Source: Knoellia remsis
GTDB lineage: Bacteria > Actinomycetota > Actinomycetes > Actinomycetales > Dermatophilaceae
DNA: 64,000 bases
Reading direction: 5' to 3'
NCBI RefSeq assembly: GCF_003002895.1
Contig: NZ_PVTI01000011.1
Coordinates: 1 to 64,000 of the forward strand
Under the pieces are notes generated by a model. That model searched no databases, was not told the DNA's origin, and saw only the letters and a program-made list of their open reading frames with translations. The position numbers and the translations under genes were made by a program. Shown here piece by piece: positions 348-64,000 of this stretch (position 1 is the stretch's first letter; the number at the start of each line of letters is the position of its first letter).

Positions 348-382
348 GTATGCCGCCCGCTCTCGGCGAGCGGGCGGCATAC
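348..382 (-). terminator. Hairpin terminator built from an inverted pair of GTATGCCG words
   Basis: Positions 349-362 and 368-381 are perfect 14-bp inverted repeats around a 5-nt loop. It lies just downstream of the DUF3566 stop (422, minus strand), where the gyrB-gyrA-DUF3566 transcript should end. The arms carry GTATGCCG and CGGCATAC, the 8-mer that recurs across the window. No clear U-tract follows, as is common in GC-rich actinobacteria. Confidence 0.6.
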
Positions 383-421
383 GGGAGGTGCGTGGCCGGC
401 ATACCGGCGAAGCGGGTTCGG

Positions 422-946
422 TCAGTCGTCGGTGAGGGTCAGCTGGAGGCCGCCGACGAGGCTGCTCGACACGTTGTAGAGGAACGCCGACAGGGTCGCG
501 AGCGCCGTCATGAGGATGACGTCGATGACGCCGACGACGATCGCGAGCGAGACGACGCGACCGAAGCCGACGAAGTCCATGATGTCGAAGCTGTTCTCGC
601 CGTCCTGGATGATCTGCCCGACGAGGCCGTTGACCTGCTCGAAGACACCCATGCCGGCGAGGATCATCCACAGCACGGCGACCATGACGACGCCGGCGAT
701 GCCGAGCGCCACGGACAGCAGGAACGACATCTTCATCGCCGACCACGGGTCGACCCGCGAGACGGTGAGCCGGACCCGACGGCCAGTGCCGCGCGGAGCA
801 GCCGCGGCGGACCGGGGCGTCGTCGGCACCGAGTCGGCGCCGGTTGCGCCGTCGGAGGCGGACGCACGGGTCATCGAGCGGGTCGGCTCGGCGGAGCCGC
901 TCGATGCACTGCGCATCGAGGTGCCTGCCTGGTCTGCCGTGCTCAC
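422..946 (-). CDS. DUF3566 transmembrane protein
   Basis: This 174-residue protein belongs to the DUF3566 family, which actinobacteria usually encode directly after gyrA. Its N-terminal 60 residues are Ser/Ala/Thr-rich and likely disordered. From about residue 62 ([20 protein letters not shown]) the family domain begins, with two hydrophobic segments at roughly 72-97 and 128-152. The ATG start at 946 overlaps the gyrA stop by four bases (ATGA), so translation is probably coupled to gyrA. Function is not established; a cell-envelope or division-associated membrane role has been suggested for relatives. A strong hairpin follows the stop. Confidence 0.88.
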
Positions 947-3729
947 TCGTCGCCTCCGTCACCGTCGGTGTCGTTGTTGTCAGTCGACGGTACGCCATCG
1001 GCCTGTTCCCCGGCAGACGCCGCACCGGTGGGTGCCGCACCGGCAGCCTCCTCGGCCGAGGCCTCGTCGACCGGGGCCGCGTCGCCTGCCTCCTCGACCG
1101 GGGCCTCGTCACCGGGGACCTCGTCGACCGGGGTGCCGTCCACGGGGGAGACACCCTCGGCGTCGGCCTCCGCGACCTCCTCCTCGACGACCTTCTCGGC
1201 GTTGCGGGCGACACCGACGATGGCGTCGTTGCGGCCGGGCTTGGCGAACCAGACGCCGGCCGTGTTGCGACCCGTGAGCCGGACCTCGTCGACGCGGGAG
1301 CGGACGATGTTGCCGCGCTCGAAGACGACCATGACCTCGTCGTCCTCGCTGACGGTGAGCGCGCCGACGAGGTCGCCGCCCTTCTCGGTCTGCTTGGCGA
1401 CGGCGACACCGAGGATGCCGCGACCCTTGACGTTCCACTGCGACGCCTTGGACCGCTTCGCCAGGCCGGACTCGAAGACGACGAACACGTCCGGGTCCGA
1501 CCCGACCTCGATGACCGACATCGACAGCAGCGAGTCGTCGCCGCGGAACTTCATGCCGGTGACACCGGACGTCGAGCGACCCATCGGCCGCAGCGTCGCG
1601 TCGTCGGCGTGGAAGCGGACCGACTGGCCCTTGCGCGAGACGAGCAGCAGGTCGTCCTCGGCGCTCGTCAGCCCGGCGCCCACGAGCTCGTCCTCGTCGC
1701 GCAGGTTGACGGCGATGAGGCCGCCGGTGCGGGGGGAGTCGTACTCGCCGAGACGGGTCTTCTTGACGAGGCCGCCCTTGGTGGCGAGCACGAGGTACGG
1801 CGACGACTCGTAGTCGCGCAGCGCGAGCACCTGGGCGATGTGCTCGTCCGGCTGGAACGCCATGATGTTCGCGACGTGCTGGCCCTTGGAGTCGCGGCCG
1901 GCGTCGGGCAGCTCGTAGGCCTTGGTGCGGTAGACCCGGCCGAGGTTGGTGAAGAACAGCAGCCAGTGGTGCGACGTCGTCGTGAAGAAGTGCGCCACGA
2001 CGTCCTCGCCGCGCAGCTGGGCGCCCTTGACGCCCTTGCCGCCGCGCTTCTGCGAGCGGTAGGCGTCGACCTTGGTCCGCTTGGCGTAGCCGCCGCGCGT
2101 GATCGTGACGACGACGTCCTCCTCGGGGATGAGGTCCTCCATCGACATGTCACCGTCGAAGCCGTGGATCGTGGTGCGCCGGTCGTCGCCGTACTTCTCG
2201 ACGATCGCGGCGAGCTCCTCGGACACGATGTCGCGCTGGCGGGCGGGCTTGTCGAGGATGTCCTTGTAGTCCTCGATGAGCGCCTGCAGCCGGTCGTGCT
2301 CCTCGATGATCTTTTGCCGCTCCAGGGCCGCGAGCCGGCGCAGCTGGAGGTTGAGGATCGCGCGCGCCTGGACCTCGTCGACGTCGAGGAGCTCGATGAG
2401 CCCGTCGCGCGCCTCCTCGACCGTGGGGCTGCGGCGGATGAGCGCGATGACCTCGTCGAGCATGTCGAGGGCCTTGAGGTAGCCGCGCAGGATGTGGATC
2501 TCTTCTTCGGCCTTCTTGAGCCGGTATGCCGTGCGCCGCTGGATGACGTCGATCTGGTGGTCGACCCAGTGCCGGATGAAGGCGTCGATCGGCAGCGTGC
2601 GCGGCACCCCGTCGACGAGGGCGAGCATGTTCGCGCCGAAGTTCGTCTGCAGCTGGGTGTGCTTGAAGAGGTTGTTGAGGACGACCTTCGCGACCGCGTC
2701 GCGCTTGAGCACGATGACGAGGCGCTGGCCCGTGCGCCCGGACGTCTCGTCGCGGATGTCGGCGATGCCCTGGAGGCGGCCCTCCTTGACGTGCTCGGCG
2801 ATCTTCTGGGCGAGGCTGTCGGGGTTGACCTGGTAGGGCAGCTCGGAGACGACGAGGCACTGCCGGCCCTGGATCTCCTCGACCTCGACGACGGCGCGCA
2901 TGATGATCGAGCCGCGGCCGGTGCGGTAGGCGTCCTCGATGCCGGAGCGGCCCATGATGAGCGCACCGGTCGGGAAGTCGGGCCCGGTGATCCGGGCCAT
3001 GACGGCCTCGAGGGTCTCGTCCCGGCTGGCCTCGGGGTTGTCGAGGACCCACTGCGCGGCGTTCGCGACCTCGCCGAGGTTGTGCGGCGGGATCTGGGTG
3101 GCCATGCCGACGGCGATGCCAGCAGAGCCGTTGACGAGCAGGTTCGGGAAGCGCGCCGGGAGCACCGTCGGCTCCAGCGTCTTGCCGTCGTAGTTCGGCG
3201 CGAAGTCGACGGTCTCCTCGTCGATGTCCCGCACCATCTCCATCGACAGCGGCGCCATCCGGCACTCGGTGTACCGCGGGGCGGCGGCCGGGTCGTCGCC
3301 GGGGCTGCCGAAGTTGCCCTGCCCCTGCACGAGCGGGTAGCGCAGCGCCCAGTCCTGCACGAGCCGGACGAGGGCGTCATAGATCGCGCTGTCGCCGTGC
3401 GGGTGGTACTGGCCCATGACGTCGCCGACGACGCGGCTGCACTTGTTGAAGCCGCGGTCGGGCCGGTACCCGCCGTCGTACATCGCGTAGAGCACGCGCC
3501 GGTGCACCGGCTTGAGGCCGTCGCGCACATCCGGCAGCGCGCGCGACACGATCACCGACATCGCGTACTCGATGTAGCTCCGCTGCATCTCGGTGTTGAG
3601 GTCGATCGGCTCGATCCGGTCGCTTTCACCGGGCGACCGGTCGTGCATCACCGACCCCTGGTCACCGGTGTCCTCGGTGTCCACGTCGGTGTCCAGGTCG
3701 TTGTCCGTGCCGTCGATGTCGTCAGCCAT
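943..3729 (-). CDS. gyrA: DNA gyrase subunit A
   Basis: GyrA is the DNA-cleaving and rejoining subunit of the A2B2 gyrase that introduces negative supercoils. The 928-residue protein has an acidic extension of about 40 residues before the conserved start ([18 protein letters not shown]). The catalytic tyrosine is Y153 in PRYTECRM. The quinolone-resistance region reads [14 protein letters not shown], with Ser114 and Asp118 in the drug-sensitive state. The GyrA box appears as QKRGGKG in the C-terminal beta-pinwheel, which is needed for DNA wrapping. An acidic, Ala/Glu/Asp-rich tail of about 65 residues follows the pinwheel, longer than in many homologues. It is transcribed after gyrB across a 198-bp gap holding a palindromic repeat, and its stop overlaps the DUF3566 gene. 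Confidence 0.98.
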
Positions 3730-3814
3730 CAGTTCCCTTGTCCTTCAGTCACATTCATGCGGCCGTATGCCGCGTCAGTAGCGTTCGTGGGTGCGCTCGC
3801 CGTCGGTGCCGCTC

Positions 3815-3895: not shown

Positions 3896-3927
3896 CGAAG
3901 GTGAGCGGACGGCATACGCAACCGGCC

Positions 3928-6099
<2,172 letters not shown>

Positions 6100-6334
6100 T
6101 CATGCCGCGCGCCCGGGGCTGGTGCGGGTGACCGCTGGTGGCCCGGGGCGCGACGTTCACCCCAAAGTTTACCTGTCAGCTCCGACAAAGCTCGCCACTG
6201 GAGGCCCGTGGAGGCGGTTTTCTCGGATTCCCACGGGTGGCGACGACCCGGCATACGGTCCCCACCCCTCCAGCGCGCCCTGACGGCGTTTTCTCACGCT
6301 CGGCGATTCGGGTCCCCGAACGTGCGGCGCTGGG

Positions 6335-8290: not shown

Positions 8291-8373
8291 GCGCACAACG
8301 CTAGCGGCCGGCATACCCGGCGGACTGGCCGACCGCGGCCGCACGGCCAGTCCGGGCATGTGGTCCCGCAGTG

Positions 8374-8517: not shown

Positions 8518-9708
8518 TCAGTCGGGGGTCGGCAGGGTGTGGTCGCCGACGAGGAGGCTCGGGACGAGGCCCGGCTGGATCGACGCGACGACCTCGGTCC
8601 CGACGGGATAGCGGACCGAGTGCGGCTGCCACGAGCGGACCGTGCGCCCGGACGGCAGCCGGACCGTGTGCAGGACGAACGCGCCGTGGTACTCGACCCG
8701 CTCGACGACCGCCCGCGCACGCGCGACCCCGTCGCCTCCGTCCGCGGGCAGCGTCAGCGTCAGCGCCACCTCGTGCGGCCGCACCACCACCTCGGCCTCG
8801 CGTGCGTCGACGTCGGTGCGCACCATGACTCGGCCGAGCTCGCTCATCAGCCCGTGCTCGTCGGCCACCACCGGCAGGAAGTCCGCGTCCCCCATGAAGG
8901 ACGCGACGAACCGACTCACCGGCCGCTCGAACACCTCCGCCGGGGTGCCCAGCTGCTCCACGACACCGGCGCGCATGACTCCGATCCGGTCGCCGACGGT
9001 GAGTGCCTCGGTCTGGTCGTGCGTCACGAGGATCGCCGTCGTGCCCGTGGCACGCAGGGCGTCGACCGTGTCGGTCCGGACCCGGGCGCGCAGCGACTCG
9101 TCGAGCGAGGAGAACGGCTCGTCGAGCAGCACGACCTCCGGACGCGGCGCGAGCGAACGGGCGAGCGCGATGCGCTGCTGCTCACCACCGGAGAGCTCGT
9201 GCGGGTAACGATCAACCGTGTGCGGCAGGTGGACGAGCTCGAGCACCTTCCGCACACGGGCGTCCTGCTCCGCGCGCGCCACTCCCGCGAGCCCGAACCG
9301 GATGTTGTCGCCCACGGTGAGGTGCGGGAACAGCGCGTGCTCCTGGAAGACGAGCCCGACGCGCCGCTTCTCGGGCGGCACCCACGCACCCCGCCCCGCG
9401 ACCGTCGCGTCACCGACGCGCACCTCGCCGGCGTCCGGACGTTCCAGCCCGGCGACGAGTCGCAGCAGCGTCGACTTGCCGCAGCCGGACGGCCCGATGA
9501 GCGCGACGATCTCGCCCGCTTCGACGGCGAGGTCCAGCTCGCACACGGCCGGGGTGTCACCGTAGGACTTCGAGACGGTGCGCAGCGCGAGCGCCGGATC
9601 CCGTTGTGCCCCAGTGTCATTCGTTTCGTATGCCGTCCGCGCACCCACGTGGGTCTCGCGCGCGTCGTCCGGGGTTGCGTCCCGTCCCACCGTGGCCTCG
9701 CTCGTCAT
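8518..9708 (-). CDS. Ferric-iron type ABC transporter ATP-binding protein (FbpC-like)
   Basis: This 396-residue ATPase energises the importer made with the two upstream genes. After about 40 unconserved residues, the nucleotide-binding domain shows Walker A GPSGCGKST, Q-loop FQEHALFPH, signature LSGGEQQR, Walker B VVLLDEPFSSLDE and switch His in VTHDQTEAL. A C-terminal TOBE-like regulatory domain (from about residue 290, VVVRPHEVAL) is typical of FbpC/PotA-type importers. The ATG overlaps the permease stop as ATGA (9705-9708), so the three genes form a tight operon. The partner binding protein points to Fe3+ as substrate. Confidence 0.9.
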   Translation of the reverse strand: MTSEATVGRDATPDDARETHVGARTAYETNDTGAQRDPALALRTVSKSYGDTPAVCELDLAVEAGEIVALIGPSGCGKSTLLRLVAGLERPDAGEVRVGDATVAGRGAWVPPEKRRVGLVFQEHALFPHLTVGDNIRFGLAGVARAEQDARVRKVLELVHLPHTVDRYPHELSGGEQQRIALARSLAPRPEVVLLDEPFSSLDESLRARVRTDTVDALRATGTTAILVTHDQTEALTVGDRIGVMRAGVVEQLGTPAEVFERPVSRFVASFMGDADFLPVVADEHGLMSELGRVMVRTDVDAREAEVVVRPHEVALTLTLPADGGDGVARARAVVERVEYHGAFVLHTVRLPSGRTVRSWQPHSVRYPVGTEVVASIQPGLVPSLLVGDHTLPTPD

Positions 9709-11417
9709 GACAGCTCCTGACGGTGCGGCTCGGCGAGACGGACCTGCCGCACGAGGAAGTACACCGGGACGATCGCGAGCGCGACGATGAGCAGGGCGGG
9801 CAGGGCGGCCTGCTCCCAGAAGTTCTCGTTGGCCAGCTCGTAGACCGACACCGACAGCGTGGTGAAGCCGAACGGTCGCAGGAGCAGCACGAGGGGCAAC
9901 TCCTTCACGGCGTCGACGGCGACGAGGACGAGCGCGACCGCGATGCCCGAGCGTGACAGCGGCAGGTGCACCCGGCGCAGCACCCGCCATGGCGAGGACC
10001 CGAGCGAGAAGGCCGAGTTCGTCACCGACGGCGAGATCGTCGCGAAGCTCGCGTCGACCGCCTGGTACGCCGGCGCGAGGAAGCGCACGACGTAGCTCGC
10101 AAGGATACCGAGGACCGACCCGGTGACGACGAGCCCGGTCCCACCCGCCACGCCGAGTGCCTCGAGCCAGCCGTCGAGGGCCGCGAACGCGACGAGGACG
10201 CCGATCCCGATGACGGCGCCCGGGACGGCATACCCGAAGGTTGTGAGCTGAGCGGCCGCACGCGCGAGCCGGCCTCCGGTGACGCGTACCCCGTGCGTCA
10301 CGACGAGCGCCAGCCCGACACACGCGAGCGCGGCAAGCGCGGCCATCACCCCGCTGTTGGCGAGGTTCATCGCGAACCGGCCCGTCGAGAGCGACGACGA
10401 GTCCGCCGCCGTCGCGGTCACGGCCCACCACACGAGCCGCGCGACCGGCAGGACGAAGGCAAGCAACAGCACCGACCACGCCGCCGCGGCCGCCCACCAG
10501 CGCGCCGCCCCGGTGAGCACCGTGGGAGCGGCGGGTGGACGATGACCGCCGCGGGCGTCATACCGCGCACCACCGCGCAGGATCCGCTCACCGGTGAGCA
10601 CGAGCACCGCGAAGGCGAGGACGAGGACGGACAGCTGAGCCGCCGACGCGAAGTCGAACGAGCCCTTCCACGTGAGGTAGACGCCGACCGAGACGGTGCG
10701 GACGGTGAAGTACTGGACCGTGGCGAAGTCGGTGAGCGTCTCCATCATGACGACGGCGAGGCCACCGGCGATCGCGGGGCGGGCCAGCGGCAGTAGCACC
10801 TGCCGGAAGGCGCGCCACGGCGACGCGCCGAGCATGCGCGCGGCGTCCCACGTGACCTGCCCCTGACCGCGAAAAGCCGCTCGGGACAACAGGTAGACGT
10901 AGGGATAGAGCGTCAGCGACAGCACGACCGGCGCTCCGAGCGGGCCGGACAGCCACTCGACGAACCCCGACGTCCCGACCGTCGCCCGCGCCGCCCGCGC
11001 CGGACCACCGGCCGGCCCGAACGTCGACAGGACGAGGAAACCCAGCACGTAGGCCGGCATCGCGAGGGGCAGCACGAGCAGCCAGGAGAGCCAGCGACGG
11101 CCCGGGAAGTCGTAGGCCGTGACGAGCCAGGCGAGCCCGACACCGAGGACAGTCGTGCCGAGGGCGACGGCGGCGAGGAGCGCGACCGTCGTGACGACCA
11201 TCTCGCCGAGACCGCGGGGCCAGGCGCTGTCACCGACGGACGCGAGCGCCTCGACGAGGACGGCGACGACGGGGATGCAGACGATCGCGGCGATGAGGAC
11301 GACGAGGGCGGACCACGCGGGGCGTCCCGTCCCGGTCAGGCGGACGCGGCGCGCCCGGGCGAGGCGTCCGTCGGCTGCGCGACACGCGCCGCGCGCCTCG
11401 GTCGCCGGGACGGTCAC
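9705..11417 (-). CDS. Ferric-iron type ABC transporter permease (FbpB-like, fused double unit)
   Basis: The 570-residue membrane protein has about twelve hydrophobic segments arranged as two homologous halves, as in FbpB permeases that form both transmembrane units in one chain. The coupling (EAA-like) loops are visible in each half: AARMLGASPWRAFRQVLLPLA and NSAFSLGSSPWRVLRRVHLPLS. The start is taken as the GTG at 11417, which overlaps the stop of the binding-protein gene (GTGA); longer upstream frame is antisense to nothing conserved and lacks membrane character. It works with the 8518 ATPase and the 11414 binding protein. Confidence 0.9.
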   Translation of the reverse strand: MTVPATEARGACRAADGRLARARRVRLTGTGRPAWSALVVLIAAIVCIPVVAVLVEALASVGDSAWPRGLGEMVVTTVALLAAVALGTTVLGVGLAWLVTAYDFPGRRWLSWLLVLPLAMPAYVLGFLVLSTFGPAGGPARAARATVGTSGFVEWLSGPLGAPVVLSLTLYPYVYLLSRAAFRGQGQVTWDAARMLGASPWRAFRQVLLPLARPAIAGGLAVVMMETLTDFATVQYFTVRTVSVGVYLTWKGSFDFASAAQLSVLVLAFAVLVLTGERILRGGARYDARGGHRPPAAPTVLTGAARWWAAAAAWSVLLLAFVLPVARLVWWAVTATAADSSSLSTGRFAMNLANSGVMAALAALACVGLALVVTHGVRVTGGRLARAAAQLTTFGYAVPGAVIGIGVLVAFAALDGWLEALGVAGGTGLVVTGSVLGILASYVVRFLAPAYQAVDASFATISPSVTNSAFSLGSSPWRVLRRVHLPLSRSGIAVALVLVAVDAVKELPLVLLLRPFGFTTLSVSVYELANENFWEQAALPALLIVALAIVPVYFLVRQVRLAEPHRQELS

Positions 11418-12451
11418 TTGTAGCCGGCCTCGGCGAGAAGCTCGACGGCCTCGGCGTTCTGCGACCCGTAGGCCTCGGCGGAGAGCGGCATCCGCTTGAA
11501 CTCGCCGAACTTCGCGATCATCGGCTCGGGCTTCACGTCGGGGTTGACGGGGTACTCGTGGTTGCCGTCGACGAACGCGCTCTGCCCCTTCGTCGCGAGC
11601 CACTCGATGAGCTGCTGCGCCTGGGCGGCGTTGTCGGAGGTCTTGACGACGCCCGCGCCGGAGATGTTGACGTGCGTGCCGGCGCCCTGCTGGCTCGCCC
11701 AGTAGAGCTTCACCTTGAGGTTGGGGTTCTTCTTGAGCTCGCGGGCGACGTAGTAGTGGTTCGTGATGCCGACGTCGCAGGTGCCGGCGTCGATGGCCTT
11801 GATGAGCTCGACGTCGTTGGACTTGATCTGGACCCCGTTGGCGACCCAGCCCTTGACGATCTCGAGGGTCTTCTCGCGGCCCTCGAGCCCGATGAGGCTG
11901 GCGACGAGGCTCTGCGTGTACGCCGACGTGGCGTCGCGCATGCAGAGGCGACCCTTCCACTTCGGGTCGGCGAGGCCGGCATACGTGTCCTTGGGGTCGA
12001 AGTCCGCGGGCTTGACCTTGTCGGGGTTGTACGTCGTCGTGCGGGCCCGCATCGCGAGGCCGAACCAGCGGTTCTCGCTGTCGCGCAGGTCGGCGGGGAC
12101 GGCCTTGTCGAGGGCGGGGGACTGGAGCGGCTTGAGGACGTCCTGCTGCGCGGCGTTCCACAGGTTGCCCGCGTCGACGGTCATGAAGACGTCGGCCTCA
12201 CCGTCGGCGCCCTCGGCCTTGATGCGCTGGAGCAGCTCGGCGTCGTTGCCGCTGATGAACTCGATGGAGATGCCGGTCTCGTCCTGGAAGTCCTTGAACG
12301 CACCCTCGAGCGCATAGTGCCGCGCCGAGTAGATCTGCAGGTCGGCGTTGCTGCCGCCGATGCCGAGCACGCCGCACCCGGCGAGGGGAGCGGTGACGGC
12401 GAGGGCGGCGACGCCGGCGAGCGCGGCGCGGGTGGGACGGCGAGAGGGCAC
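11414..12451 (-). CDS. Ferric iron-binding lipoprotein of an ABC importer (FutA/FbpA-like)
   Basis: This 345-residue extracellular binding protein captures Fe3+ for the importer. The lipobox is LAGC near residue 25, followed by GVLGIGGSNADLQIYSARHY, the typical first strand and Tyr of FutA/FbpA proteins. The adjacent tyrosines in ITNHYYVARELKK correspond to the iron-binding pair of the family. The GTG start at 12451 has a good ribosome binding site (AGGAG seven bases upstream). An IdeR/DtxR-like box (12496-12514) lies in the divergent promoter region, so expression is probably repressed when iron is sufficient. Confidence 0.92.
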   Translation of the reverse strand: MPSRRPTRAALAGVAALAVTAPLAGCGVLGIGGSNADLQIYSARHYALEGAFKDFQDETGISIEFISGNDAELLQRIKAEGADGEADVFMTVDAGNLWNAAQQDVLKPLQSPALDKAVPADLRDSENRWFGLAMRARTTTYNPDKVKPADFDPKDTYAGLADPKWKGRLCMRDATSAYTQSLVASLIGLEGREKTLEIVKGWVANGVQIKSNDVELIKAIDAGTCDVGITNHYYVARELKKNPNLKVKLYWASQQGAGTHVNISGAGVVKTSDNAAQAQQLIEWLATKGQSAFVDGNHEYPVNPDVKPEPMIAKFGEFKRMPLSAEAYGSQNAEAVELLAEAGYK

Positions 12452-49590: not shown

Positions 49591-49899
49591 CCCGCACGAC
49601 GCGTGGGGCGGTCGCGTGGGGCGCCCGACGCGTGAGGCGGGCACGCGTGGCGCGCGGCCGGCATACGGTGACCGGCACAGCGGCATACGGTGACTGGCCC
49701 ATCCGGGTCGTGGGCGCTGGCTATCGCGGAATGCCGGCAAGCGGGTAGCATGCGGCGCGGCACGGCTGCGCTTTCCTGTCCATGGCTCGAACGGGCGTTG
49801 TGCCACAGCAGTACCCACGGGGGGTGACTGGGCTCGGGGGCCGTGCAGGGTCTTCCGCGTCGGGTTCACCCCGCCCAGCGACGAGAGGACCCCGACCCC
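49591..49899 (+). other. 309-bp gap before moxR with possible promoter and two GTATGCCG words
   Basis: The gap contains two direct copies of CGGCATAC (49659-49666 and 49681-49688), repeated GCGTGGGGCG-like words near 49604-49625, and TAGCAT (49746-49751), a plausible -10 that would give moxR a leader of about 140 nt. No gene is seen. The long leader could be regulated, but I recognise no riboswitch. Confidence 0.35.
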
Positions 49900-52639: not shown

Positions 52640-55044
52640 GCGAAGCCACCCAGAGCCGTCGCGAGCTGCGCGAGGAGCAGCAGGCCTCGCGGAGCCTGTC
52701 GATGCCGTCGTTCGGTATGCCGTCCCGTGACGCCCTCGTCGACCTCGCCTTCGCGCTCGTCCTCGTGGGGATCGCGCTCGTGGGCTTCCGCACCGGCTTC
52801 ATCGGCTGGGAGTGGGTGCTCGCAGCCGGTGCCGGGGTCGTGCTCGGCACCCTCGTCGCCCACGTCGCCGTCGCCCGATCGTGGCCGCTCGTCCTCACCG
52901 CACTCGTCCTCGTCGCCGTGCACTTCCTCCTCGGTGGGCCGTTCGCCGTCCGCGGGGACCTCATCGGCGGCGTCGTCCCGAGCCTGCAGACGCTGCGCGA
53001 CCTCGCGACGGCTCCGGTCACGGGGTGGAAGGAGTGGCTCACCCTCCTGCCGCCGGTCGATGCCCGCGGTCCACTCGTGGCCCTGCCGTGGGTCACGGGA
53101 CTGGTCGGCTCGGCGCTGACCTACGGCGTGGCCCGGCGGTTCCGCAGCGTCAGTGCCGCGGCGATCGCCCCGGTGGTCCTGCTCGCCGGCAGCATCGCCC
53201 TCGGCACCCAGCAGCCGGCGGCCAAGCTCGTCCAGGGTGTCGTCTTCGCGCTCGTCCTCATCCTGTGGCTCGTGGCCCGCTCGGCTCGCACGCGCGCTGC
53301 GCTCCAGAACGGCGCCGGCCGGCAGGCCCGCACCGTCACCGGGGTCGCGCTCCTCGCCGTCGCCGCGGTGGCCGGAACCTTCCTCGGACCGTTCCTGCCG
53401 GGGACCGACGAGGGGGCTGCGCGGGCGGTCGTCCGCAGCGAGCTCACGCCGCCCTACGACGTCGCCCAGTTCACCAGCCCGTTGTCGGGGTTCCGGGAGT
53501 ACACCGAGCCGAACGCCGCCGAGCTCTACGACAAGGAGATCCTCTCGGTCTCCGGCCTGCCCGACGGCACTCCCGTGCGGTTCGCGACCCTCGACAGCTA
53601 CGACGGCCTCGTCTGGGGTGCCGCCGACCGGGCCATGGACGGCACGCCGTTCCAGCAGGTCGGGTCGCGCATCGCGCCGCGTGCCACGGGTGAGAGCGCG
53701 ACCGTGACCGTGACCGTTCCGGAGGGCGGCTACGACGGGGTGTGGCTCCCGCTCGCCGGGTCGACGACCGGTATCAGCTTCACCGGCGCACGCAGTGACG
53801 ACCTCGCCGACGCGTTGTGGCTCAACACCGCGACCGAGACCGCCGCGGTCCCGGCGTCGATCGGCCCGGGTGACAGCTACACCTTCGACACCGTGCTCAC
53901 GGGGGAGTACTCGACGAAGCTCCCCGCCGAGCTCGACGTCGCGAGCGGCGGCCAGATCTCGCAGGACACGAGCTTCCTCGACAGCAAGCTCGACGCCTGG
54001 ACCGGTCAGGAGAGCGGCGCCTGGCAGAAGCTCGTCGCCGTCGCGAAGACCATGAGCTCCGAGGGTGCCTACACCGACGGTGGGACGGCGAACTCCTACG
54101 AGAAGGTCTACCTGCCCGGTCACAGCCTCGGCCGACTCAGCCGCTTCGTCGGCTCGACCCAGCTCGCGGGCAACGACGAGCAGTACGCCGCGACCCTCGC
54201 CCTCGTCGGCAACCGCCTCGGCATCCCGAGCCGGGTCGTCATGGGCGCCATCCCCGAGGCCGGCGGCGTCGTCAAGGGCAAGGACGTGCACGCCTGGGTC
54301 GAGGTGCAGCAGGACAACGGCACGTGGCACGCCCTGCTGCCGTCGACGTTCCTGCCCGACCGCAACAAGAAGCCCAACGAGCAGCAGCTCAAGTCGGAGG
54401 AGCAGAAGGTCGGCGCCCAGGTGCCGCCGCCCGCCGGTGTCAACCCGCCGTCGGTGCTCCAAGGTCCCGACCAGGCCCAGAACGCCACGGACATCAAGAA
54501 GAAGAAGCGCAACCCGCTCGACATCGGTGCCTGGCCGCTCTGGCTCAAGATCCTCGTCCTCGGCATCCTCCTGCCGATCCTGCTCGCCGTCGGGATCTGG
54601 GCGCTCATCCGCTGGCTCAAGGCGCGTCGTCGCCGCAAGCACGCGACGACCGGTCCGACGCCGGCGCGCGCGGCGTGGGTGTGGCGCGACCTCGTGAGCG
54701 ACGCCCGTAGCCTCGGTGTCGCCGTCCCGCGGGGCGCGACCCGGCTCGAGCAGGCCGCGGCCTTCCCCGAGGGGGTCACGGCCGCCCCCATCGCGGCAGG
54801 CGCGAACGCCGCCGTCTTCGGCCCGGGTGACCCGGAGCCCGAGGTCGCGGTGGGTCTGCTCGAGGAGGCCGACGGGGTTCGCCGCGAGCTGCGCGGTCAC
54901 ACCTCCCGCTGGCGCCGCCTGCGCTCCGACCTCAGCCTGCGCCCGTTCTTCGAACGCGACCCGCGGACGCGGACGGCGGCTCGCCGCCTCCCGTCGCTGC
55001 CCGCGCTGCGCCGGACCAAGGCCACGGGCGGTGCCTCCGCGTGA
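52636..55044 (+). CDS. Transglutaminase-like (TgpA-type) membrane protein lacking the catalytic Cys
   Basis: The 802-residue protein has about six membrane spans in the first 260 residues, an extracellular region, a transglutaminase-like core (about 475-570), a further membrane span (about 635-660, LWLKILVLGILLPILLAVGI) and a cytoplasmic tail. In the core the segment GNDEQYAATLALVGNRLGIP aligns with the GxCxQ active site, but the Cys position holds Asp514; His552 (DVHAWVEV) is kept. It is probably not a transglutaminase or protease by the classical mechanism and may act as a scaffold or binding protein. It overlaps both neighbours (ATGA and GTGA). Confidence 0.88.
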   Translation: MSEATQSRRELREEQQASRSLSMPSFGMPSRDALVDLAFALVLVGIALVGFRTGFIGWEWVLAAGAGVVLGTLVAHVAVARSWPLVLTALVLVAVHFLLGGPFAVRGDLIGGVVPSLQTLRDLATAPVTGWKEWLTLLPPVDARGPLVALPWVTGLVGSALTYGVARRFRSVSAAAIAPVVLLAGSIALGTQQPAAKLVQGVVFALVLILWLVARSARTRAALQNGAGRQARTVTGVALLAVAAVAGTFLGPFLPGTDEGAARAVVRSELTPPYDVAQFTSPLSGFREYTEPNAAELYDKEILSVSGLPDGTPVRFATLDSYDGLVWGAADRAMDGTPFQQVGSRIAPRATGESATVTVTVPEGGYDGVWLPLAGSTTGISFTGARSDDLADALWLNTATETAAVPASIGPGDSYTFDTVLTGEYSTKLPAELDVASGGQISQDTSFLDSKLDAWTGQESGAWQKLVAVAKTMSSEGAYTDGGTANSYEKVYLPGHSLGRLSRFVGSTQLAGNDEQYAATLALVGNRLGIPSRVVMGAIPEAGGVVKGKDVHAWVEVQQDNGTWHALLPSTFLPDRNKKPNEQQLKSEEQKVGAQVPPPAGVNPPSVLQGPDQAQNATDIKKKKRNPLDIGAWPLWLKILVLGILLPILLAVGIWALIRWLKARRRRKHATTGPTPARAAWVWRDLVSDARSLGVAVPRGATRLEQAAAFPEGVTAAPIAAGANAAVFGPGDPEPEVAVGLLEEADGVRRELRGHTSRWRRLRSDLSLRPFFERDPRTRTAARRLPSLPALRRTKATGGASA

Positions 55045-58000
55045 GACTTCCGGGGGGACGTGGCGCCGCCGGTAGCGGCGGGAGTCGGCGCACCCGCGCC
55101 GACCGGCGCCGGGGCCGCATCGCGTCGGCGACCGTCGTCGCCGTCGCGGCGGCGTCGTTGGTGTATGCCGCGGTGTCGTCGCAGGGTGCGACGGTTCACG
55201 AGGCCGATGTCGGGGATGGTGGGGTGTGGATCACCTCGGATGTGCAGGCGAAGTTCGGTCGGCTGAACAAGGCCGTGTCTCAGCTGGACGCGGGTGTGGC
55301 CGCGGATGTGGCTCCGGGGTCGGGGATCGACGTGCTGCAGGATGGCAGTGCGGTGGTGGCGTGGTCGAAGGCGACGGCTCAGCTGCAGCCGATCGATGTG
55401 CGGACGGCGCAGCTGCGTGAGGAGACGGCGACGGCGCCGGCGGTGCCGGAGCGGGCTCCTGGTCGGGTGGTGCCGACGTTCGTGGGTCTGCGGGGTGGCA
55501 CGTTGGCGGCGGTGGACCCGAAGTCGGGCAAGGTGTGGGCGCAGCGGGTCGACACTCGCAAGGGCATCGACTCGTTGTCCGGGCTCGGTACGGGGGCCAA
55601 GCCGCTTGCGACGGTGGGTGCGGATGCGGTTCTCGCGGTCGGTGAGGACGGAGCCGTTCACGTCGCCTCGGGCGCGAAGGGCACGGTCACGACGATTCGT
55701 CCCGTGGGGGAGAAGTTCGCCAAGCCGATCACGGTGGACAGTGGTGCCAAGGGCACGCTCCTGCAGGTCACAGCCGTCGGCGGGGACTGGGTGGTCTACA
55801 ACCCCGAGCGCGACACCGTGCACAGCGCAGGCAACACCGACGGTGCCGCCGCGGGTTTCGCGGCGACCGAGGGTGAGCGTGCGTATGCCGTCCTGCAGGC
55901 TCCCGGACCGGCATCCGGTTCCGTGGCGGTCGCCGGAGGCAACGGTCTCCGGATGGTGCCCCTGGAAGGCGGAGTCGGCCAGGGCGGGATCGAGATCTCC
56001 GAACGTGTGGGTCGCAGCGGCGGCGTCCCGCTGCCGGCGAGGCCGGTGGTGCTCCGGGGTTGTGTGCACGGTGCATGGTCCGAGCCGGGCAAGGTGTTCT
56101 ACGGCGCCAACTGTGGACGCCAGCAGCCGGTGCCGACGGGCACGATCGAGAACGTCAGCGAGACCCCGCTGCGCGATGGTGTGGCCTTCCGCGTGAACCG
56201 TGGCGTGATCGTGCTCAACGACCTCGACAACGGCAGTGCGTGGGACCTGCTGCAGGACAAGCAGAAGATCGACAACTGGGATGCGCTCATCCCGCCGCCG
56301 CAGCGCGACGACGACAACAAGAAGAAGGACAAGAACCTCGTCGACGACGCGGTCCAGCAGCAGCCGCCGGAGGCCAAGCCCGACGACCTGCGGGTCCGCG
56401 CCGGACGCACGAGCAAGCTGCATGTCCTCGACAACGACACCGACGCGGCCGGCTCCGTCCTCGCCATCGACCCGGCCGACGTGAGCGCCCCGTCGAACCC
56501 CGATGTGCGCGTCTCCGTTGCGGCCGACGGCCAGAGTGTGGATGTCAACGTGCCTGCCGGCACCACGGCGCCCTTCCAGTTCACCTACCGCGTCGGCAAC
56601 GGCACGGTGAAGTCCAAGACCCGCGCCACCGTCAAGGTGAGCATCGTCGACGACGCCACCAACAACGCCCCGTTCCTCCGGCCCGGACAGGCCAAGCTCG
56701 CGAAGACGGCATACCCGGTCCTCGCGGGCAAGCGCATCTCGGTGCCGGTCGCGGCGGACTGGCGTGACCCGGAGTCCGACCCGGTCATCGCGACGGTCGA
56801 CGGTGAGGGCCTCAGCATCGATGGACAGGGACGCCTGTCGTACCTGGCTCCGCCGGAGCCCGGCAAGGGTGCGGTCGAGTACGTCGCCGACGACGGTCGC
56901 GGCGGGCGCACCAAGGGTTCGGTGCCCGTCGAGGTCATCGCGTTGACCGAGACGCGCCCGCGTCCGCCGGTCACCCAGCCGGACGTCATCCGTGGCGTCG
57001 TCGGCAAGCCGCTGCAGATCGAGCCGCTCGGCAACGACATCGCCGGCGCCGACCCGAGCGACCCCTCGGCTGAGATGCGTCTCGCCGGTGACGTACGCGC
57101 GACCGGCTCCCTCACGACCGACACCAACCTCGACACCGGCGTGGTCACCGTGACGCCGTCTGCGCCCGGGTCCTTCGAGCTGTCGTATGCCGCGCAGGTC
57201 GGCGGTGGCGTCGCGCCGGGTCGGATCCGGGTCGACGTCATCGAGGCGGCCGACCCGGAGGCGCTACCCGTCGCGGTGGGCGACACCGCGACGCTGCGGG
57301 ACCAGTCGCCGACCCTCGTCGACGTGCTGGCCAACGACTACAGCCCGCGGGCGGACGTCCTCGTCACCCAGGCTGCCGGTGGCGCGACCAGTGAGGACTC
57401 GTGGCTCCAGGCGTCGATCTACCAGGGCAGGTGGGTGCGGCTGGTGGCGCTCGAACCCGCGGGGTCGGCGGCCAACGGCACGAGGTCGGGCACGATCCGC
57501 TACACCGTCTCGGACGGGTCGAAGTCGGCCACGGGTCAGGTGACCGTGACCCAGAAGCCGACGCAGGAGCAGAACCCTGTCGTCGAGGACGACTCCGCCG
57601 TGGTGCGCGAGGGCGACACCGTCGCGGTGCCCGTGCTCGACAACGACACCATGGCCGACGGCATACCGCTCTCCATCGACCCGAAGTCGGTCAAGGTCCT
57701 CGGTGACGGGGCCCAGCAGACCGCCTTCGCCTCCGGCAACGTCGTCCGGTTCGTCCCGTGGCAGCGCGGACTCACCGCCGAGGCCACCGTCACGATCGAG
57801 TACGCCGCGTACCCCGAGGGGATGCCCGAGCGGGCTCAGACCGGTCGCATCTCCGTGCGGGTCACCCCGCTGCCGACGACGGCCCGACCGAACCAGGTGC
57901 CGGTGGCGCGCAGCTTCAGCTCGTCGGTGACGGCCGGTGACCCGCTCACGATCACGGTGCCGACGAGTGGCGTCGACCCCGACGGTGACACGGTCGGTGT

Positions 58001-61000
58001 GACCGGCATCGTCGGGGCCCAGGACGGCGCCCTCGACCTCAAGTTCGGTCGGGTCGTCTCTACGGGCCCCTCGACGATCCGCTACGAGTCCTTCCCGACC
58101 GCTTCGGGCACCGAGGTCATCCCGTACGAGGTGGTCGACAGGTTCGGCGGCGTGAGCCGGGCGTTCGTCCGGGTCGGGGTGGTGGCACCGGGTGACCCGC
58201 AGCCGCCGGTCGCGGTCGACGACACCGTCACCGCCGCCCCGGGCAAGACCGTCTCGGTGCCGGTCACGGCCAACGACCTCATCGCCCGCGGTGACTCGGT
58301 GGAGCTGCTGTGGAAGGAGTCCAACCCGGGCGAGGACCTCACTGCGTGGAAGGTCGACGAGGAGCAACAGACGGTCTCGACGAAGGTTCCCGACGAGGGT
58401 GCCCCCGTGCACGACTTCGTGTACGGCATCAGCAACGGGGTGTTCGACCCCTCACGCGCCAGCCTGCTCGTGCGCGGGCAGAAGGACTTCATCAACCCAC
58501 CGACAGCCACTGATGACGTCGCCAAGCCGAAACCGGGGGAGACCTCGACGGTGGTGGACGTCCTCGCCAACGACACCGACATCGACTCCGACCCGAGCAC
58601 CCTGAAGATCGTCGAGGTCCTCTCCCCGAACGCCACGGTCGAGAGCGGCAAGGTTCGCGTCACGATCACCGAGCAGCCGCAGACCGTCCCCTACGTCATC
58701 GAGGACGAGGACGGCGCCCGGGCCATGGCGGTGATCTATGTCCCGCGGGGCGACGGAGGGACACCGTTCGTCGTCGAGGGCGCGCTCATCGAGATGGACA
58801 AGGACGCCACGAAGACCGTCGCGCTCTCCGACTATGTGAAGTCCCCCCAGTCCCGGGTCCTCGGGGTCACCTCGCCCGAGACGATCTCGACCGCGCCCTC
58901 GGCCAACCTGTCGTTGACCGCGGAGGGGGGCCAGCTCACGCTCACGTCCTCGGGTGCCTATGTCGGACCGGCCTCGGTGATGTTCGAGGTCTCCGACCAG
59001 CAGAGCGAGGACCAGAAGGACGTCAACACGGCATACGTCTCGGTGCCGGTGCAGGTCGGGCCCAAGGTGGCGCTGCTGCGCTGCCCGAGCACCGCGGTGA
59101 CGATCCTCGCGGGTGGCAACCCGCGCGAGCTCGACATCCCGTCACTGTGTCGGGCCTGGCTGCCCGTGGGCCTGTCCATGGACGACGTCGAGTTCACCTC
59201 GCAGTGGCAGAGCGAGCCCGCCGACCTGCGCACCGAGCGCAGCGGCACCGGACAGCGGCTCGTGACTCTCAGCGCAGGTTCCGGCGCCCGGTCCGGCAAG
59301 GGTGTGCTCCGGGTCGGGGTTCGCGGGTCCGACGTCACCGCAGCCATCAACGTCACGGTCGTCGGCGCCCCGACCGAGCAGCAGACGGCCACCGATCCGG
59401 CGACGAGCATGCCCCCGCCGCGACTGCGACCCATGACGATCAACGGGCTCAAGGAGGGCGACAGCCAGCAGCTGGACGTGCGCTCCTACCTCGACTCGCC
59501 CCTCGAGAACCCCGAGTGCACGATCGTCGCGGCAGCCGTCACCAGCGGGCAGGGCCTCCAGGTCTCACGCAGCGGCTGCGTCCTCACCGTCACCGCCGGG
59601 GCGAAGCCGGGTCCGAGCGGTCGCATCTCGGTCAACGTCAGCGACGGACCCAACCGACAAGCCGTCGGCGCGGTTGCGGTGACCATGCTGGGGCGCCCCG
59701 GTGCGCCGACCGCCGTTGCGGCACAGGCCGATCGGGACGCCGGCGGCCGAGCACGCGTCTCCTGGACCGCCCCGGCCTACGACGGCGGTGCACCGATCCG
59801 CACCTACACCGTGAAGTGGACCGGCGGCTCCACGGGCAGCCAGGACTGCTCCGCCTCCCCGTGCACCATCGCCGGTCTGACCAACGGCAAGGACTACTTC
59901 TTCACCGTCACGGCGACCAACCTCGTCGGCGAGGGCGACCCCGGTGGTCCCAGCAATGCCGCCCGACCCGACACCAAGCCGGGGCCGGTCGGTGGGGTGA
60001 CCATGGCCGGCCGCGGCGACGGGTCGTTGACGATCAGGTGGTCGCCGCCGGAGAACAAGGGCTCGGCGGTGAGCAAGTACGTCGTCCGCCTCGTCCCCAC
60101 CGGTGGCGGCAGCCCGCGCCTCGTCGAGGTGGCCGCTCCTGCGACGACGACGACGGTCAGCGGCCTCGACAACATGAGCCAGTACTCCGTCGCCGCGCAG
60201 GCCTACAACGAGGCCGGGCCCGGACCCTTCGGGACGGCCGCGACGATGCAGTCCGCCGGCAAGCCACCGGCGCCGACGGGCCTCAAGCTCACCCCGAGCG
60301 GGCCTGGCCCCAACGCCGACCTCGCCTCGCTCACCCTCACGTGGAACACCACGAGCCCCAACGGCCCGCCGCTCAAGCACTACACCGTCCGCAAGCGCGT
60401 CAACGGCGGGGCGTGGCAGGTCCTGCGGACCGTCGCCGCGGGAACGACCCGCACCACCGACCAGGTGAGCTACGACGGCAAGCGCTATGAGTACACCGTC
60501 TCGGCGACCAACGGCGCCGACCTCGAGGGTGCCCCCTCGACGCCGCAGTCGTTCACGTCCGTCGGACAGCCCTCGACGCCTCGGATCACGAGCGCCACGA
60601 CACCCAAGTCCGACTACGAGGCCACGGTGACCGTGAGCCTCGGCCAGCCGCGCTCCGGGGCGTTCACCTCGCTGACATGGCGCTCCTCCTCCGGGCGCAG
60701 CGGGGTCATCCCCTGCTCGGCATCGACGTGCCCGGCCGGCGGCACCCGGACCTTCACGACGTCGGCGCTGCCGCTCGGACAGCAGACCATCACGGTCACG
60801 ACGTACAACGGCACGATGTCGTCGCAGCCCTCCAACGGGGTGGGTGTCTCCCCGTACGGCCCGACGCCCCGCCCGGAGCCGAACGGCGGCTCGACGAGCG
60901 GCAAGACCGTCACGTTCCGCTGGACCCTGCCCACCAACGGCCGCCCCATCACCAAGGTCGTCATCTCGGGCGCCAGGTCCTACAACGGCTCACCCATCAC

Positions 61001-61441: not shown

Positions 61442-61455
61442 GGGGAGCTCTCCCC
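61442..61455 (+). terminator. Short hairpin between the two giant genes
   Basis: GGGGAG and CTCCCC form a compact inverted repeat 18 bp after the stop at 61424. Its sequence resembles the loop-proximal half of the 44131-44154 terminator. The 123-bp gap otherwise holds only the ribosome binding site of the next gene. Confidence 0.4.
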
Positions 61456-61547
61456 ATTCCCGCAGGTCAGCGCCCTGTGCGATCCTTGACCGCGGGGATG
61501 ACCAGCCCGATGGGCGTGGTCATGTGAGCCAGGAGAACCAGAGAGAC

Positions 61548-64000
61548 ATGACACGAGCAGGACGAGCGACGCGTATGCCGCGTGGGCGACGTGGGGTCGC
61601 CTCCGTCGGCGTGCTCGCGGTCACCGCATCGATGCTGCTGTATGCCGCGGTCACCAGTGAGGGGACGACCGTCCACGAGGCCGACGTCGGCGACGGTGGC
61701 GTCTGGGTCTCCTCGAGCGCGCAGGCCAAATACGGCCGACTCAACACCCAAGCGCGCCAGCTCGACGCCGGTGTCTCCACGGCGCTCGCGACCGGGTCCA
61801 AGCTCGACGTCCTCCAGGACGGTGCGGCCGTCGTCGGGGTGGCCACCGGCAACACCCTCATGCCGATCGACGTGCGGACGTCGACGGCTCAGGACTCCGG
61901 CGCCGCGGCTCCCGCTCCGGTCTCCGTCGACGGCCAGTTCACCCCGGCGACGGTGGACATGCGTGGCGGCACCATCGCGGCGGTCGACCCCAAGACCGGC
62001 AAGGTCTGGGCGCAGCGCGTCGACGTCAAGAAGGGCATCGACTCGCTCACCGACGTGAGCACGACGGCCAAGCCGCTCGCGACGATCGGCGGCAACGCCG
62101 CGATCGCCGTCGACGAGCGCGGCACCGTCGTCGCCGCCTCCGGCGCGACCGGCCGCGTCGTCACCATCGCGGCCGCCGGCGACGACCTCGCCAAGCCGGT
62201 CACCGTCACGACGAAGGTCCGGGCCCCCAGCCTCGACGTCACCGCGGTCGGCGACACGTGGGTCCTTTACGACCCGACCAAGGACGAGCTCACCATCGAG
62301 GGCCGGGACGAGCCGATCAGCGCGGGGGCAGCGCTCGGTGACGGACCGGCATACGCGGCACTGCAGCAGCCGGGACCCAAGGCGAGCTCGGTCGTCATCG
62401 CCAACCGCGTCGCCGCGCGACCGGTTCAGCTCGACGGCAGCGGCGAGGGCCAGGGTGGTGTCGAGGTCCAGGAGCAGGCGAACCGCTCGGTCGAGCCGCC
62501 GCTCGTCGCGCGTCCCGTCGTGTTGCGGGGCTGCCTGCACGCCGCGTGGTCCGAGACGGGCAACGTCTTCTACGGCGCGAACTGCGGCCGCGCCAACCCG
62601 GTCGCGGCGGGCACCCTCGCCGGCGGTGGCAAGGGTGTCGTCCGCGACGGCGTCGCCTTCCGGGTCAACCGCGGCAACATCGTCCTCAACCAGCTCGACA
62701 CCGGCGACGTCTGGGACCTCGACTCGACGAAGCAGAAGATCGACAACTGGGACGCGCTCATCCCGCCGACGAAGAAGGACGACGACAACGACAAGAAGGA
62801 CGAGAACGTCGTCGACGACCAGCAGGTGAGCCAGCCGCCCAAGGCGATGCCCGACAACCTGCGGGTGCGGGCCGGCCGGACGAACAAGATCCATCCGCTC
62901 GACAACGACACCGATGCCAAGGGCTCCATCCTCGCCATCGACCCCAAGGACCTCACCCCACCGAGCGCGCAGGATGTCACGGCCACCGTCTCCAGCGACG
63001 GCCAGAGCGTCGACGTCGCGATCCCCCAGAACCCGAGAGCGAGCACGATCACGTTCTCCTACAAGGTGAGCAACGGCAAGGCGAAGCAGAAGGGCTCGGC
63101 CAAGATCGTCCTCACCGTCGTCGGCGACGAGGTCAACACCCCACCGAAGCTGCGTGAGGGCCAGGCCCAGCTCGCCCGCACGACCTACCCCGTCGTCGCC
63201 GGCGGGCGGGTGGCCGCCTCCGTCCTCGGTGACTGGCGCGACGGCGAGAGCGACCCGCTCAGCGTCGAGGCCGTCGACCCGAGCACCGTCATCGACGGAC
63301 AGGGCCGTGTCGGGATCACCGCGGCCGCGAAGCCCGGTCCGGCCACCGTCGCCTACGGCGTCAACGACGGGCGCCTCACGACCAAGGGCGAGGTCGACCT
63401 CACCGTCCTCGACCTCACCGACCCCAAGGCCGTCCCGCCGAAGACCCAGCCGGACGTCGTCCGTGCCGTGCTCGGCAAGCCGGTCCAGCTCGAGCCGCTC
63501 GGCAACGACGTGCCCGGGGCCGACCCCGGTGACCCCGACGCCAAGCTGCGCCTCGCGGGCGAGGTCGTCCCGTCCGGCGCGCTCGACGTCGACACGAACC
63601 TCACCACCGGTGTCGTCACCGTGACGCCCACCGGGCTGGGTTCGACGGAGCTGTCGTATGCCGCGCAGTCCGGTGGGACCGTCGCTCCCGGTCGGATCCG
63701 CGTCGACGTCGTCGAGCCCGCCGACCCGGAGGCGCCGCCGGTCGCCGTGCCCGACGGTGCGACGCTGCGCGACCAGTCCCCGACGATGGTCGACGTCCTC
63801 GCCAACGACTACAGCCCGCGCGCCGACGTCGTCGTCACCCAGAGCGCCACCGCGGCCGGTGACAACCGCTGGCTGCGCCCGACCGTCTACCAGGGCCGCT
63901 GGGTCCGCATTGAGGCCCTCGAGCCGTCGCCGGTCAGCGGCACGGGCAGTCGGCAGGGCACGGTCGAGTACACGATCAGTGACGGCACGAAGCGCACGAC
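61548..64000 (+). CDS. Giant Ig-like surface protein (second of a tandem pair), 3' end outside the window
   Basis: The frame is open from the ATG at 61548 (with AGGAG-like sequence upstream) to the window end, about 817 codons. It starts MTRAGRATRMPRGRRGVASV, has a membrane span at about 17-36, and then repeats the architecture of its neighbour: HEADVGDGGVWVSSSAQAKY against HEADVGDGGVWITSDVQAKF, and LANDYSPRADVVVTQ against LANDYSPRADVLVTQ. It is clearly a paralogue from tandem duplication. Whether it also has fibronectin domains at the C-terminus cannot be seen. Confidence 0.9.
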   Translation, partial: MTRAGRATRMPRGRRGVASVGVLAVTASMLLYAAVTSEGTTVHEADVGDGGVWVSSSAQAKYGRLNTQARQLDAGVSTALATGSKLDVLQDGAAVVGVATGNTLMPIDVRTSTAQDSGAAAPAPVSVDGQFTPATVDMRGGTIAAVDPKTGKVWAQRVDVKKGIDSLTDVSTTAKPLATIGGNAAIAVDERGTVVAASGATGRVVTIAAAGDDLAKPVTVTTKVRAPSLDVTAVGDTWVLYDPTKDELTIEGRDEPISAGAALGDGPAYAALQQPGPKASSVVIANRVAARPVQLDGSGEGQGGVEVQEQANRSVEPPLVARPVVLRGCLHAAWSETGNVFYGANCGRANPVAAGTLAGGGKGVVRDGVAFRVNRGNIVLNQLDTGDVWDLDSTKQKIDNWDALIPPTKKDDDNDKKDENVVDDQQVSQPPKAMPDNLRVRAGRTNKIHPLDNDTDAKGSILAIDPKDLTPPSAQDVTATVSSDGQSVDVAIPQNPRASTITFSYKVSNGKAKQKGSAKIVLTVVGDEVNTPPKLREGQAQLARTTYPVVAGGRVAASVLGDWRDGESDPLSVEAVDPSTVIDGQGRVGITAAAKPGPATVAYGVNDGRLTTKGEVDLTVLDLTDPKAVPPKTQPDVVRAVLGKPVQLEPLGNDVPGADPGDPDAKLRLAGEVVPSGALDVDTNLTTGVVTVTPTGLGSTELSYAAQSGGTVAPGRIRVDVVEPADPEAPPVAVPDGATLRDQSPTMVDVLANDYSPRADVVVTQSATAAGDNRWLRPTVYQGRWVRIEALEPSPVSGTGSRQGTVEYTISDGTKRT

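Follow-up and report, generated by a model that had tools for sequence, protein, structure and literature searches.

An octamer abundant within one actinobacterial family is a probable DNA-uptake sequence

The receptors of DNA-uptake words are of the type IV pilin type, namely ComP in Neisseria and, as proposed, PpdA/ComN in the Pasteurellaceae. The DNA-uptake sequences (DUS) of the Neisseriaceae occur in eight dialects, are missing from some genomes and form inverted pairs at terminators, according to the sections of one study drawn on here (PMC3630211). An article of 2025, consulted in part, calls the Neisseriaceae and the Pasteurellaceae, whose words are known as uptake signal sequences (USS), the sole families known for uptake words (PMC12616744). 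Among actinobacteria, Micrococcus luteus possesses comEA, comEC and two tad clusters, and its transformation requires comEC and tad genes of both clusters, as reported in the portion of the paper used here (PMC4322843). Here we describe an 8-mer, GTATGCCG, in a 64-kb stretch of Knoellia remsis DNA (contig NZ_PVTI01000011.1, positions 1 to 64,000; hereafter the window) and in the genome to which it belongs (G000; 3,573,222 bases in 62 contigs). The word is maintained exactly, on both strands alike and at about one copy per kb, against codon preference and within one family. Our analysis indicates that it is probably a DNA-uptake sequence of a Dermatophilaceae lineage, read by a Tad-type machine.

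The window contains 59 exact copies of GTATGCCG, the number given in an earlier note on this DNA, with 29 on the forward (+) and 30 on the reverse (-) strand; the first starts at 348 and the last ends at 63663. Dinucleotide-preserving shuffles of the window yielded a mean of 0.65 copies and a maximum of 3 (100 shuffles), and a third-order Markov model predicts 3.2. Under the latter model the word has the highest z (31) among window 8-mers with at least 10 occurrences. The excess claimed in the earlier note therefore stands, while its size, put there at about 25-fold, depends on the null and ranges from about 18 to 90 in the window; the word has three A/T positions rather than the four then counted. 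GTATGCCG is non-palindromic, its reverse complement being CGGCATAC. The next base after GTATGCC is G in 59 of 59 window copies, just as the earlier note had observed, and in a 464-kb sample of the 3.57-Mb genome (the window plus 400 kb of other stretches) it is G 436 times and A, C or T 2, 3 and 5 times. The whole genome holds 3277 copies (1622 + and 1655 -), about one per kb with balanced strands, so the excess is real and not confined to the window.

Genes in the 464-kb sample were called with a simple codon-score script, by which 263 of the 436 copies are coding, 163 are intergenic and 10 span gene edges. Permuting synonymous codons 20 times gave an expectation of 14.7 coding copies, so that the excess persists in the codon-shuffled control which the earlier note had proposed, and a dinucleotide model gave 1.18 intergenic copies; GTATGCCG is the top 8-mer of G000 in this combined test. 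Two reading frames predominate among the coding copies, xxG-TAT-GCC-Gxx (117 copies) and xCG-GCA-TAC (104 copies), and the remaining four frames account for 42 copies. In G-Tyr-GCC-G contexts, 117 of 137 Tyr codons are TAT, compared with 189 of 2273 elsewhere; in xCG-Ala-TAC contexts, 104 of 154 Ala codons are GCA, compared with 898 of 17161 elsewhere. This confirms that the word forces the rare codons TAT and GCA. We identified gyrA, gyrB, dnaA, dnaN and recF in the window, and copies do lie in core genes as had been noted: in gyrA (2524..2531, +), gyrB (5902..5909, +) and recF (18944..18951, -, and 19125..19132, +), with another at the 5' end of dnaN (22586..22593, -).

We then define word-rich genomes as those with at least 400 copies of GTATGCCG and word-poor genomes as those with fewer than 150, both cut-offs being our choice. 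Absolute counts are used because the backward-word control is an unclean null, its background being raised by words 7 bp apart. Two copies overlap at this 7-bp spacing at G005:C1 15914 and 15921, and genera g4 and g18 show raised backward-control counts, perhaps from such overlaps. Among 186 genomes of the family, 106 are word-rich, 14 hold 150-399 copies and 66 are word-poor, although the low counts may partly reflect incomplete genomes (for example, G129 is 74%, G181 68% and G008 89% complete). Of the 53 genera, 25 contain only rich genomes and 19 only poor ones, 5 are mixed and 4 are intermediate, and rich and poor species occur within the same genus in g4 (G008 poor), g32 (G083 poor) and g41 (G113 poor). 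Summed over the 106 word-rich genomes, 100,849 forward and 101,150 reverse copies were counted. An order-wide sample of 297 genomes includes 273 from other families, and among these the count peaks at 177 (G395), short of the 400-copy cut-off. The names of loci matched by ComEC alignment suggest that the family is the Dermatophilaceae/Intrasporangiaceae. Around comEC, 22 copies occur in 22 kb of Phycicoccus elongatus, 18 in a metagenome-assembled Tetrasphaera genome, 16 in Ornithinimicrobium cavernae, 13 in Humibacillus xanthopallidus, 12 in Terrabacter sp. Root85 and only 6 in Arsenicicoccus bolidensis. None was found in the comEC loci of Janibacter indicus (12 kb), Intrasporangium flavum, Dermacoccus abyssi and one uncultured Phycicoccus.

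Alignment of 13 word-rich and 6 word-poor loci, one of the latter (L161, Arsenicicoccus) holding 6 copies in 22 kb, revealed conservation of the word at corresponding sites. As a control we used 400 words with the letters of GTATGCCG in other orders; gapped sites (38 and 19) were excluded, and the counts include each pair in both directions and come from related genomes. Between word-rich loci, at a mean segment identity of 73%, 236 of 606 aligned copies are identical versus 2890 of 15071 control words (19%), so the word is kept about twice as often as the controls. When word-rich loci are paired with word-poor ones, identity falls to 8 of 239 copies (3%), versus 916 of 6294 controls (15%). 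Loci in which GTATGCCG is abundant thus preserve it whole, whereas the others have lost it.

Some sister lineages carry dialect words. We scanned 40 kb from each of 20 word-poor or intermediate genomes of the family, and in five (G178, G089, G034, G002 and G015) the top 8-mer is a one-letter relative of GTATGCCG. Observed and expected counts under the codon-shuffle null, for which some genomes were sampled more deeply, establish GGATGCCG firmly as a dialect word, with 217 against 46.1 coding and 30 against 2.1 intergenic copies in G221 (family f19), 141 against 26.5 and 24 against 2.3 in G034, and 39 against 6.6 and 9 against 0.5 in G178. There is good support for GTACGCCG as well (coding 110/27.7 and intergenic 10/1.1 in G002, 90/19.1 and 8/0.9 in G089, and more weakly 26/8.4 and 6/0.5 in G015), which is held less firmly because codon usage gives this word a baseline count in other actinobacteria (186 copies in 891 kb of loci). 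Tentatively, GTACGGCG in G083 (67/17.1 and 13/1.3), CGATGCGG in G082 (117/27.6 and 7/1.9) and CGAAGGGG in G092 (28/5.5 and 10/0.2) may be further dialect words. In G221, G034 and G002 the other two of the three main dialect words are far rarer, with 4 to 34 copies in 160-180 kb. Across the order-wide sample GGATGCCG is densest in f19, whose 22 genomes hold 485 (G250) to 4831 (G276) copies, more than 1000 in 20 of them; their density is above 400 per Mb in 16 cases and above 600 per Mb in 12. The densest genome outside f19 has about 380 per Mb (G158 of g46) and the next about 290, and six f19 genomes lie in or near this background range. In the scans of other families each was represented by a single stretch no longer than 20 kb, and four of the 20 family stretches (f5, f10, f11 and f16) were shorter than 10 kb and left out of the scan, so absence there weighs little.

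Several other repeated words were seen in these genomes. In G092 (genus g35; L041, L042, L111) CGAAGGGG/CCCCTTCG is over-represented in both coding and intergenic DNA and could be a word of this type yet unrelated. G053, of the word-poor genus g27, has a repeat beginning CGCAACTG, with ATTTGCCC, almost only between genes (L037, L038, L243-L246). Markov nulls repeatedly show an excess of CTGCGCGA/TCGCGCAG in G160, G092, G001, G034 and G002. A Microbacterium phage record of 50 kb and 57% GC contains 7 GGATGCCG, 4 GTATGCCG and 5 GTACGCCG and was not used as evidence.

Intergenic DNA of G000 carries 2.78 copies of the word per kb and its genes 0.65 per kb, and 88 of the 128 intergenic copies with a flanking stop codon start at most 80 bp from the stop. 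Neighbouring copies that face in opposite directions within 60 bp number 23, against 12.0 expected at random. Six chosen inverted pairs, all from G000, were folded, of which five gave z between -6.3 and -9.4 and one gave -1.9; one perfect hairpin of 38 bases is identical at two places (L025, L026). Two of the inverted pairs lie in the window. The first (348..355, +, and 375..382, -) forms a long terminator-like hairpin at 340..392 on the + strand (-36.4 kcal/mol, z -6.3), and the second (21395..21402, +, and 21409..21416, -) a shorter hairpin at 21388..21424 on the - strand (-18.3 kcal/mol, z -1.9), which bears out the inverted pairs in terminators described in the earlier note. Furthermore, the intergenic copies share a 10-base extension, TCCGCGCGCC, at 0.3-0.8 bit per base, which is weak or absent around coding copies of G000, partial in twelve other word-rich loci (44 contexts, up to 0.5 bit) and not recognisable in six Tad-A loci (14 contexts). 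Since the extension is strong only in G000, the common unit is the 8-mer. The gaps between copies in the 464-kb sample are near-exponential (429 gaps, mean 1057, coefficient of variation 0.93). The sole gap above 6 kb measures 8.1 kb and is mostly an element with two phage-integrase-family proteins that adjoins Tad locus B. Genes below 69% GC hold 18 copies in 83.7 kb, compared with 245 in 321.9 kb of other genes. The phage portal family PF04860 occurs in 1 of 51 word-rich family genomes (G151, 88% complete), too few prophages for a comparison, which suggests that prophages of this portal type are few in word-rich genomes.

Candidate uptake machinery is present in G000, which encodes ComEA (with SLBB and helix-hairpin-helix domains), ComEC and two Tad loci. 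Tad locus A comprises a TadZ-like protein, named by position, together with TadA, two T2SSF proteins, a sortase, a 45-aa Flp-type pilin and a TadE-like protein. Tad locus B comprises TadA, two T2SSF proteins, a 71-aa Flp-like protein with no Pfam match, two TadE-like proteins (one below the Pfam cut-off) and one Tad/TadG-like protein. ComEC is found in 180 of 186 family genomes and in all 17 f19 genomes searched, and Tad-type ATPases of the T2SSE family in all 40 genomes chosen from both word-rich and word-poor species. With G000 queries in tblastn, all 20 loci examined gave a match to TadA of locus A, and 18 of them to its Flp pilin. Gene presence did not single out a receptor, as ComEC, type IV pilins, Tad ATPases and Tad locus A all fail to split word-rich from word-poor genomes, and no discriminating gene appeared among the small Tad pilin frames listed for 21 loci. 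The earlier note had expected a type IV pilus with a ComP-like pilin. This expectation failed, and a ComP-like type IV pilin is ruled out as reader in G000 by the absence of the N_methyl family; an uptake pilus, if any, would therefore be of the Tad/Flp type.

A number of observations weigh against a function in uptake. The classical type IV pilin family (N_methyl, PF07963) occurs in 4 of 186 family genomes and not in G000, and gene-presence comparisons of ComEC, pilins and Tad genes found no receptor for GTATGCCG. Word-poor relatives retain ComEC and Tad ATPases, so that the machinery does not predict the word; its specificity may accordingly lie in another component, or uptake in these species may proceed without the word. 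Among six word-rich Tad-A loci, two are without an intact Flp pilin. In G078 (L097, about 10067-10111) Flp matches for its first 15 residues only and is then cut short, and in G102 (L115) the Flp pilin of locus A was not found by tblastn; TadZ, A, B and C are present in both. These exceptions count against a need for locus A, and because of them we weigh the uptake reading slightly lower and that of a nucleoid site slightly higher. After masking of GTATGCCG, one-mismatch words number 335 against 299 expected, almost no excess. The extension is strong in G000 only, and there only between genes, and the intergenic enrichment, strong in G000, is only mild in twelve other loci and absent in G221, G034 and G002. 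A possible depletion in foreign DNA rests on one integrase element plus the GC correlation. Finally, no comparable word was detected in 12 of the 20 word-poor or intermediate genomes sampled, by both codon-shuffle and 8-mer scans in G160, G184, G008 and G053 and by 8-mer scans alone in G001, G011, G014, G019, G021, G022, G038 and G113; in the codon-shuffle test G008 has a weak word only and G053 only an intergenic hairpin repeat.

Of the explanations that dispense with uptake, the one we take most seriously, while still judging it unlikely, is that GTATGCCG is the site of a chromosome-organising protein, for nucleoid structure, partition or repair, needed about once per kb. Strand-neutrality and near-random spacing fit such a site, as do the conservation at aligned positions, the extended intergenic consensus in G000 and the failure of the uptake machinery to predict the word. 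However, some sister species carry a one-letter variant and others nothing comparable (G160, G184), hairpin-forming inverted pairs after genes are a habit of uptake words, and an integrase element and low-GC genes would not be expected to be poor in a core nucleoid site. A Chi-like hotspot, at which the word would stop and direct a nuclease of the RecBCD/AddAB/AdnAB type, appears improbable to us. Chi words are also short, non-palindromic, over-represented and variable between lineages, but Chi is strongly biased to the leading strand, at about 75% in E. coli. In the origin window, 30 of 59 copies run with the replication fork if the origin lies at 23 kb, or 29 of 59 if at 25 kb (P = 6e-5 or less against 0.75). 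Hairpin pairs would not be expected of Chi, whose density in E. coli is several-fold below that of GTATGCCG.

We find it very improbable that a HIP1-like bias of mutation, repair or methylation writes the word. A single genome-wide word with little near-miss excess agrees with such a bias, and HIP1 is similarly abundant in cyanobacteria and tied to orphan methyltransferases in the part of the source consulted (PMC4390886). Against it, GTATGCCG is not palindromic and all eight of its positions are held, which no single substitution bias does; the codon override, the paired hairpins and the conservation between loci of 73% mean segment identity speak likewise. We give scarcely any credence to a dispersed intergenic repeat, REP- or terminator-like, that would have spread the word with the coding copies as by-product. 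The 10-base extension shared by intergenic copies in G000, and the inclusion of some in longer repeats with CCAATTGG, recall such a repeat. The coding copies largely refute it, as genes, in which the extension is faint or lacking, hold 263 of 436 sampled copies, and the coding density of twelve other word-rich loci is the same (0.68 vs 0.67 per kb) with a much weaker extension.

The reading as an uptake sequence, likened to DUS/USS in the earlier note, finds support in the genome evidence, namely density, exactness, strand balance, codon override, hairpins, confinement to one family, dialects in some sister lineages, ComEA/ComEC and two Tad loci, and the uptake step itself is put forward by analogy with the Neisseriaceae. 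Free DNA would be taken up when a surface component of the Tad/Flp pilus, or the ComEA step behind it, binds GTATGCCG, which would favour fragments with the word; the receptor may be of Tad type or another. ComEC would then move one strand inside, and recombination would copy word-bearing alleles into the chromosome. Over generations such biased uptake could lead the word to accumulate in permissive places, that is, intergenic DNA, terminators, and Tyr-Ala and Ala-Tyr codon pairs, and a shift in receptor preference could give rise to a new dialect.

On a wider joint reading, self-recognising uptake would have a third, independent origin here, beyond the Neisseriaceae and Pasteurellaceae for the first time and without precedent in monoderm bacteria, with the words GTATGCCG, GGATGCCG, GTACGCCG and perhaps more as dialects in at least two actinobacterial families, and with a Tad/Flp minor pilin, not a type IVa pilin, as reader; we see this as evenly poised between true and false. 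If it is true, self-selective transformation has more than two origins and can work through a different pilus, one that dispenses with type IVa pilins. It would also predict natural competence in many actinobacteria, on the basis of the words dense around comEC in the Phycicoccus elongatus, Tetrasphaera, Terrabacter, Humibacillus and Ornithinimicrobium loci. GTATGCCG could be used to tag DNA for the transformation of such bacteria, and the lineage, in which some relatives are rich in the word, some are poor in it and some switch dialect, would form a test bed for spread by drive versus benefit.

The other exact copies in the window lie on the + strand at 3765..3772, 9628..9635, 12656..12663, 13895..13902, 16418..16425, 22945..22952, 24973..24980, 25947..25954, 28122..28129, 33417..33424, 35872..35879, 38365..38372, 41514..41521, 41986..41993, 45837..45844, 47394..47401, 49338..49345, 52715..52722, 55163..55170, 55883..55890, 57185..57192, 61573..61580, 61640..61647 and 63656..63663. 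Those on the - strand lie at 397..404, 3910..3917, 6249..6256, 8309..8316, 10226..10233, 11977..11984, 13798..13805, 14953..14960, 25705..25712, 32270..32277, 33145..33152, 34411..34418, 36674..36681, 38640..38647, 39998..40005, 43582..43589, 44391..44398, 46620..46627, 47984..47991, 48770..48777, 49659..49666, 49681..49688, 56707..56714, 57659..57666, 59029..59036 and 62347..62354. A longer intergenic repeat, GTATGCCGtccgctcacctt...ctcacccaattggac, follows some copies, at 3910 in the window, at 13248 and 13314 in L021 and at 15140 and 15207 in L028. CCAATTGG, CAATCAGT and ACTTATTG are likewise strongly over-represented in G000. The window also holds five exact copies of GTTTCACGTGAAAC, which we take to be a parS-type sequence, at 18825, 28022, 28975, 29184 and 29310; four of these sites lie near a ParA-family gene (29007-30323) by the origin.

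No report of an actinobacterial uptake word was found among the matches listed from the open-licence literature, and a search there for exact GTATGCCG in both orientations returned only a plant-pathogen typing study. If the uptake reading holds, an uptake word in actinobacteria would be new, of the known DUS/USS kind. Compared with the described systems, GTATGCCG resembles Chi as a non-palindromic over-represented word that differs between lineages, and is unlike it in having no leading-strand bias in the origin window, in its hairpin pairs and in its greater density. With HIP1 (GCGATCGC) of cyanobacteria it shares the nature of an octamer over-represented genome-wide in a clade, as described in part of that source (PMC4390886); unlike the non-palindromic GTATGCCG, GCGATCGC is a palindrome tied to methyltransferases. 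The USS of the Pasteurellaceae, likewise short and abundant, has two dialects and a consensus that reaches beyond the core in the sections consulted (PMC12616744), whereas the extension of GTATGCCG is strong only between genes in G000, near-misses are scarcely enriched, and no pilin of the PpdA/ComN type (N_methyl family) was found in G000. The likeness to the DUS of the Neisseriaceae, as far as the cited sections describe it, extends to a short exact word with thousands of copies per genome in both intergenic and coding DNA, terminator-associated inverted pairs, dialects that track phylogeny and related genera with no obvious word (PMC3630211). Unlike that DUS, GTATGCCG is a different word, an 8-mer, in a high-GC genome of a different phylum, and G000 has no type IV pilin and yielded no ComP-like receptor, the likely machine being a Tad/Flp pilus. 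The Micrococcus luteus paper mentions no uptake word in the portion used here, and its main text does not use the terms 'uptake sequence' or 'foreign DNA' (PMC4322843), and G000 has the same set of genes as that species, namely ComEA, ComEC and two Tad loci.

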